DNA of 10,922 nt, from contig CATPBM010000062.1 of the NCBI GenBank assembly GCA_955652625.1, positions 1 to 10,922 of the forward strand, given 5' to 3'. Shown here one piece after another: positions 954-3,485 of this stretch. The translations under genes and the position numbers were made by a program. How positions within the stretch are numbered: position 1 is the stretch's first letter; each line of letters begins with the position of its first letter. The stretch comes from an uncultured Steroidobacteraceae bacterium. Lineage in GTDB: Bacteria; Pseudomonadota; Gammaproteobacteria; Steroidobacterales; Steroidobacteraceae. The notes under the pieces are model-generated. The model saw only the letters and a program-made list of their open reading frames with translations. It was not told the origin of the DNA and did not search any database.

Positions 954-3485
<2,532 letters not shown>

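Follow-up and report, generated by a model that had tools for sequence, protein, structure and literature searches.

The amber codon that interrupts secA in this stretch of DNA is a single-base difference private to one fragmentary assembly and is not shared by the lineage. We consider a local miscall in the assembled consensus to be its most likely cause, with a probability of roughly 55%. In that case the base would be wrong rather than mutated, the stop would not be a working switch, and the real secA of the organism would encode a normal full-length SecA, as in the relatives. The window, that is, the whole stretch of 10,922 nucleotides analysed here, is the whole of contig G000:C62 of a metagenome-assembled genome, which comprises 1.77 Mb in 373 contigs and is 63.9% complete. 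When a core gene is found broken in so fragmentary a metagenome assembly, comparison with relatives and with other breaks in that assembly should come before any proposal of a mechanism.

The secA frame lies on the plus strand, where it begins with a TTG at 954 and runs for 843 codons up to 3482. Read directly from the sequence, an in-frame TAG follows at 3483-3485, and behind it 94 sense codons (3486-3767) lead to a second TAG at 3768-3770, which is the normal end of secA and likewise an amber codon. The cut-off C-terminal tail consists of a conserved stretch, an Ala/Pro-rich linker and the SEC-C zinc motif, CxC-x8-CH, which is intact. The first-pass annotation had the position of the stop and both codon counts right, and its statement that the zinc motif is intact behind the stop is confirmed by the translation of the tail. 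The product of the body (954-3482, 843 aa, P0001) bears the Pfam domains PF07517, PF01043, PF07516 and PF21090, so the DEAD, cross-linking and wing/scaffold domains of a SecA ATPase are present. PF02810, the label carried by the tail of 118 of the 119 listed homologues, is absent from it, and the TAG stands between body and SEC-C tail, which form one chain in gammaproteobacterial SecA. An ATG-started ORF of 89 aa (3501-3770, plus strand) would be called for the tail, with no AGGAGG-like ribosome site just upstream. Shortly before the stop, codon 842 (3477-3479) reads GAT (Asp) where all 119 listed homologues have Glu; this second private change puts a T at 3479, four bases ahead of the T in the amber codon. 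Downstream, a gene which we take to be a MutT-like NUDIX gene (3777-4187, plus strand) is open. As an observation apart, TTG appears to be the start codon of secA in the window as well as in the 27 of 27 relatives read (L002-L027, L155), a conserved weak start in an essential gene.

Regarding the codon at the site in relatives, the best 120 of 8000 scored proteins were compared, one of them being the window's own protein of 843 aa and the other 119 having 909-967 aa. In the alignment all 119 have Glu at the amber site and continue past it, and 118 keep the zinc motif near the C-terminal end. The exception, P0022 (90%, 967 aa, on a contig of 76 kb), has a tail that reads differently, without the zinc motif. 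At the DNA level, secA matched in 55 of 58 genomes of the genus, and among the best 30 loci, which were read, a pattern could read the site in 29. The window has TAG, and the other 28 have GAG (25), GAA (1), CAG (1) and GAC (1); the locus missed by the pattern, in G074, has Glu at the site in its translation. Since the two nearest genomes by SecA protein, G014 and G033 (92 and 91%), have GAG, the change would be a transversion, G to T, in a codon for Glu. The lost residue had been proposed to be Gln, through a single CAG to TAG transition, a proposal that is not supported: Glu is found in the 119 listed proteins and in 26 of the 28 DNA loci, while the other two loci have Gln and Asp. The site does align with a Gln of E. 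coli SecA, counted along the alignment of the full-length relative P0006 (1113 bits against E. coli SecA 2fsf), and this explains the guess. A sense codon in sister genomes had been named in advance as the result that would make the stop an error or a private mutation; sister genomes carry one, and these two cases remain the likely ones. Besides secA, a distant second SecA-like gene is present in two genomes (G051:C37:9342-11162 and G027:C138:8385-10070), with 44% and 42% identity to the window SecA in the main match.

The break was then sought beyond the genus. The tail was searched in 196 genomes of the order and matched in 126; the 70 without a match at that cut-off were left out. Among the 126 the tail frame is closed at the start of the tail (94 aa) only in the genome of the window, and none of the other 125 shows this closure. 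Besides the window, ten of the 126 have a tail frame shorter than 870 aa. In G193 (130 aa) and G111 (391 aa) the frame is open to the contig end, as read in the DNA; in G181, G234, G184, G125 and G101 the coordinates are consistent with contig starts; and in G164, G238 and G097 the frames, of 677, 529 and 266 aa, extend far past the tail. A recurrent split at the tail was therefore rejected for these genomes. Furthermore, a plasmid search gave no match, and the literature searched on secA stops, readthrough and truncated isoforms yielded no description of SecA being split naturally by a nonsense codon.

The tail behind the stop has not decayed in any way that we could see. In its last 34 codons, comparing the window with five relatives, dN was 0.026-0.053 and dS 0.355-0.743; therefore the tail is not a chance open frame. 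This is a comparison of the kind that the first-pass annotation had asked for, and the constraint on these codons is evident. We also counted, over the codons at which G014, G033 and G074 agree in amino acid, the changes found in the window alone. The nonsynonymous to synonymous ratio was 3:11 in 63 codons of the tail and 17:67 in 729 codons of the body (Fisher p = 1). Three or fewer nonsynonymous changes would be seen with a probability of 0.04 in a tail left untranslated over 20% of the branch, and of 0.0001 over half of it; thus the tail, if untranslated, has been so for less than about 20% of the branch. With the tail undecayed, the stop must be of recent origin, an error, or a codon that is read through.

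That the stop is wrong is suggested by a second amber codon in a conserved gene of the same assembly. We take this gene to be sucC (L142, G000:C72, minus strand, about 1697-1699). An amber TAG occupies its codon 9 and TTC its codon 6, with the remainder of the frame open, whereas Lys and Tyr are found at these two codons in all 28 relatives that could be read (one of 30 loci was unreadable by pattern). At conserved sites, the changes peculiar to this genome are Y374F, K745M, E842D, E844stop and Y927F in secA, a list which merges two counts with different relatives and cut-offs and in which Y374F is conserved only among the 29 genus loci and not among the 119 proteins, and Y6F, K9stop and I17V in sucC. 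Seven of these eight, among them both ambers, are A>T or G>T, while these two classes make up 9.5% of the single-base nonsynonymous differences between G074 and the genome of the window, a test chosen after seeing the data. The changes also cluster, two of those in secA lying four bases apart and two of those in sucC eight. In the same count, three relatives had 2, 5 and 3 private changes in sucC, with one single-base change to T. Together with the uniqueness of the amber among the relatives examined, the fragmentary state of the assembly, the normal constraint on the tail, the position of the sucC amber three codons after Y6F and possible further lesions in two other genes described below, this is the evidence that points to a miscall.

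What stands against a miscall is that most of the consensus looks sound, and that several of the private changes are of the conservative kind expected of genuine substitutions (Y to F, E to D). Over 28 genes there was no excess of changes to T (A>T 36 against T>A 24, G>T 43 against T>G 49), and 38 of the 47 private changes in secA fall at third positions. Of 304 conserved sites in the prolyl oligopeptidase gene, which shares its contig with secA, two carry a private change, in neither case to T; the MutT-like gene has none at 40, and the upstream peptidase gene one at 84, whose base change is ambiguous. A looser cut-off added one more private change in secA, Q278E, which is not to T. Miscalls to T throughout the genome were thus rejected, as they were not seen in the 28 genes or in the neighbouring peptidase gene, and with no such genome-wide bias any error must be local.

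A coding-potential scan over 373 kb gave 12 candidates, which looked like gene boundaries on inspection by eye, and revealed no further clear stop inside a gene; its sensitivity was 894 out of 1260 in long genes, and it also missed the secA site itself. For one of the 12, a gene that we take to be sufC-like (L114, G000:C43, about 2800-2830), that judgement is in doubt: the beginning of its frame contains neither ATG nor GTG nor TTG, and it lies beside ten C, where a homopolymer slip is possible. When the ORFs of G074 were compared with the genome of the window, 41 had a match of at least 70%, and we found eight stops inside the alignments and one gene in two frames. One of the eight is the sucC amber and one is a TGA at residue 858, near the end of a gene of 868 aa; as for the remaining six, one falls in a seemingly misplaced 5' extension, three in a seemingly non-coding ORF and two in the two-frame gene. 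The latter (C43, L114, 93-1156, minus strand) matches at 83% and 59%, with the two stops in the weaker part. It is a single ORF in G074 (L188:105-1517), where it looks coding (GC by codon position 0.68, 0.49 and 0.80), and its first part matches at only 59%. The reverse comparison, of ORFs of the window genome with G074, gave two stops in 24 genes.

A genuine and very recent nonsense mutation is the next most likely cause, which we consider less probable than a miscall. The cell would then make only a tail-less SecA, still exporting and without the zinc tail that contacts the ribosome and SecB, and the 94 codons would not yet have decayed. The similar ratios of nonsynonymous to synonymous changes in tail and body and the otherwise good consensus are both consistent with this. 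So is the position of the stop, which falls in the tail: according to PMC6620043, E. coli strains that depend on a SecA without the zinc domain, or without any of the tail, grow, although not at room temperature. The first-pass annotation had called the start of the tail the least damaging place for a split, and the growth reported there fits that remark, with the same exception of room temperature, at which the tail deletions fail and which also counts against a natural loss. Moreover, a recent mutation needs a second, independent nonsense mutation, that of sucC, in the same partial genome, and both ambers are accompanied by a neighbouring private change to T. SecB was found in 52 of the 58 genus genomes and in 28 of the 28 good ones, so the tail should be useful; it was not found in the incomplete genome of the window. 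On balance a local miscall remains the reading that we prefer.

That the amber codon is read through, by a suppressor tRNA or because the UAG is leaky, giving SecA with and without the tail like the isoforms of E. coli, is very improbable. The constraint on the tail and the second in-frame amber, in sucC, would be expected from readthrough. There is also a small SecA isoform in E. coli, which lacks about 70 C-terminal residues; according to PMC13178939 its source is unknown to the authors, who discuss proteolysis and alternative translation, the latter as one possibility. However, a conserved stop, as programmed readthrough would require, was found in 0 of the 119 proteins, 0 of the 28 genus loci and 0 of the 125 other tail-matching genomes, and the amber as a programmed or conserved feature is unsupported. 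TAG is an ordinary stop in the genome of the window: it ends 71 of the 278 mechanically called ORFs of at least 100 aa in 373 kb, the secA body among them, and 35 of the 144 of at least 250 aa, as well as the secA tail itself. Neither avoidance of TAG nor loss of release factor 1 is seen; a fragment of prfA is present, which scored below the cut-off because it is cut by a contig edge. No suppressor tRNA with a CUA anticodon was among the ten tRNAs found in this 64% complete genome. PylS was over the cut-off in 0 of 58 genus genomes, with one weak match below it, which gives no sign of pyrrolysine insertion. Amber recoding throughout the genome was rejected on this result together with the frequency of TAG as a stop. 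Finally, the 100 nt after the stop show no structured RNA (z = +1.21; at least as good a fold in 184 of 200 shuffles).

A variant of this explanation, in which the amber is real and partly read through, so that tail-less and tailed SecA are made in a set ratio and the sucC amber is a second readthrough site, is slightly less probable again. If it were true, the two SecA isoforms of E. coli would have a counterpart here, one written into the gene itself.

Stand-alone ORFs for the SecA tail that begin at the same Met as the ORF at 3501 were found by a strict pattern in 31 of the 120 listed hits (P0121-P0240), and a few more by eye. Twenty-six of the 31 lie on contigs shorter than 10 kb and five (P0135, P0140, P0155, P0182 and P0227) on contigs longer than 10 kb. 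They are probably for the most part fragments or sequencing breaks, and a recurrent break near this place may exist. Least probable of all is a stable split into two genes, the SecA body and a separately started zinc protein of 89 aa: the ATG at 3501 is in frame, its Met is conserved in 119 of 119 listed homologues, and stand-alone tails from that Met occur, five of them on the longer contigs, but the same split was found in none of the proteins, genus loci and tail-matching genomes examined, the ATG has no evident ribosome-binding site on direct reading, and most of the stand-alone tails are on short contigs. From the four options that had been listed at the outset, an error and a fresh private mutation remain the likely ones, whereas readthrough and a stable split find no support.

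Among known systems, the closest are the full-length SecA proteins of the Steroidobacterales-like relatives (P0002-P0120), whose bodies are 87-93% identical to that of the window and which have the same tail layout, with the zinc motif in 118 of 119; they differ in having Glu and one continuous frame where the window has TAG. For the comparison with E. coli we assume a numbering offset that places its cut near the amber site of the window. In the alignment, and as PMC13178939 and PMC6620043 describe them, the small isoform, SecA827 and SecA-deltaCTT of E. coli are tail-less too and are cut within roughly ten residues of the site; nevertheless, in E. coli the gene is unbroken or the truncation engineered, whereas the window has a nonsense codon in an assembly. 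If the TAG were real, it would give a natural tail-less SecA in a lineage that bears SecB, which would be useful for work on the function of the SecA tail. SecA proteins without a zinc tail do occur naturally: according to PMC6620043, of the 156 SecA proteins compared 13 are without the tail and 26 others without the zinc domain. These resemble the window in having a body without the zinc tail, but in them the tail or its zinc domain is absent from the protein, whereas in the window it is still encoded, intact and constrained behind the stop.
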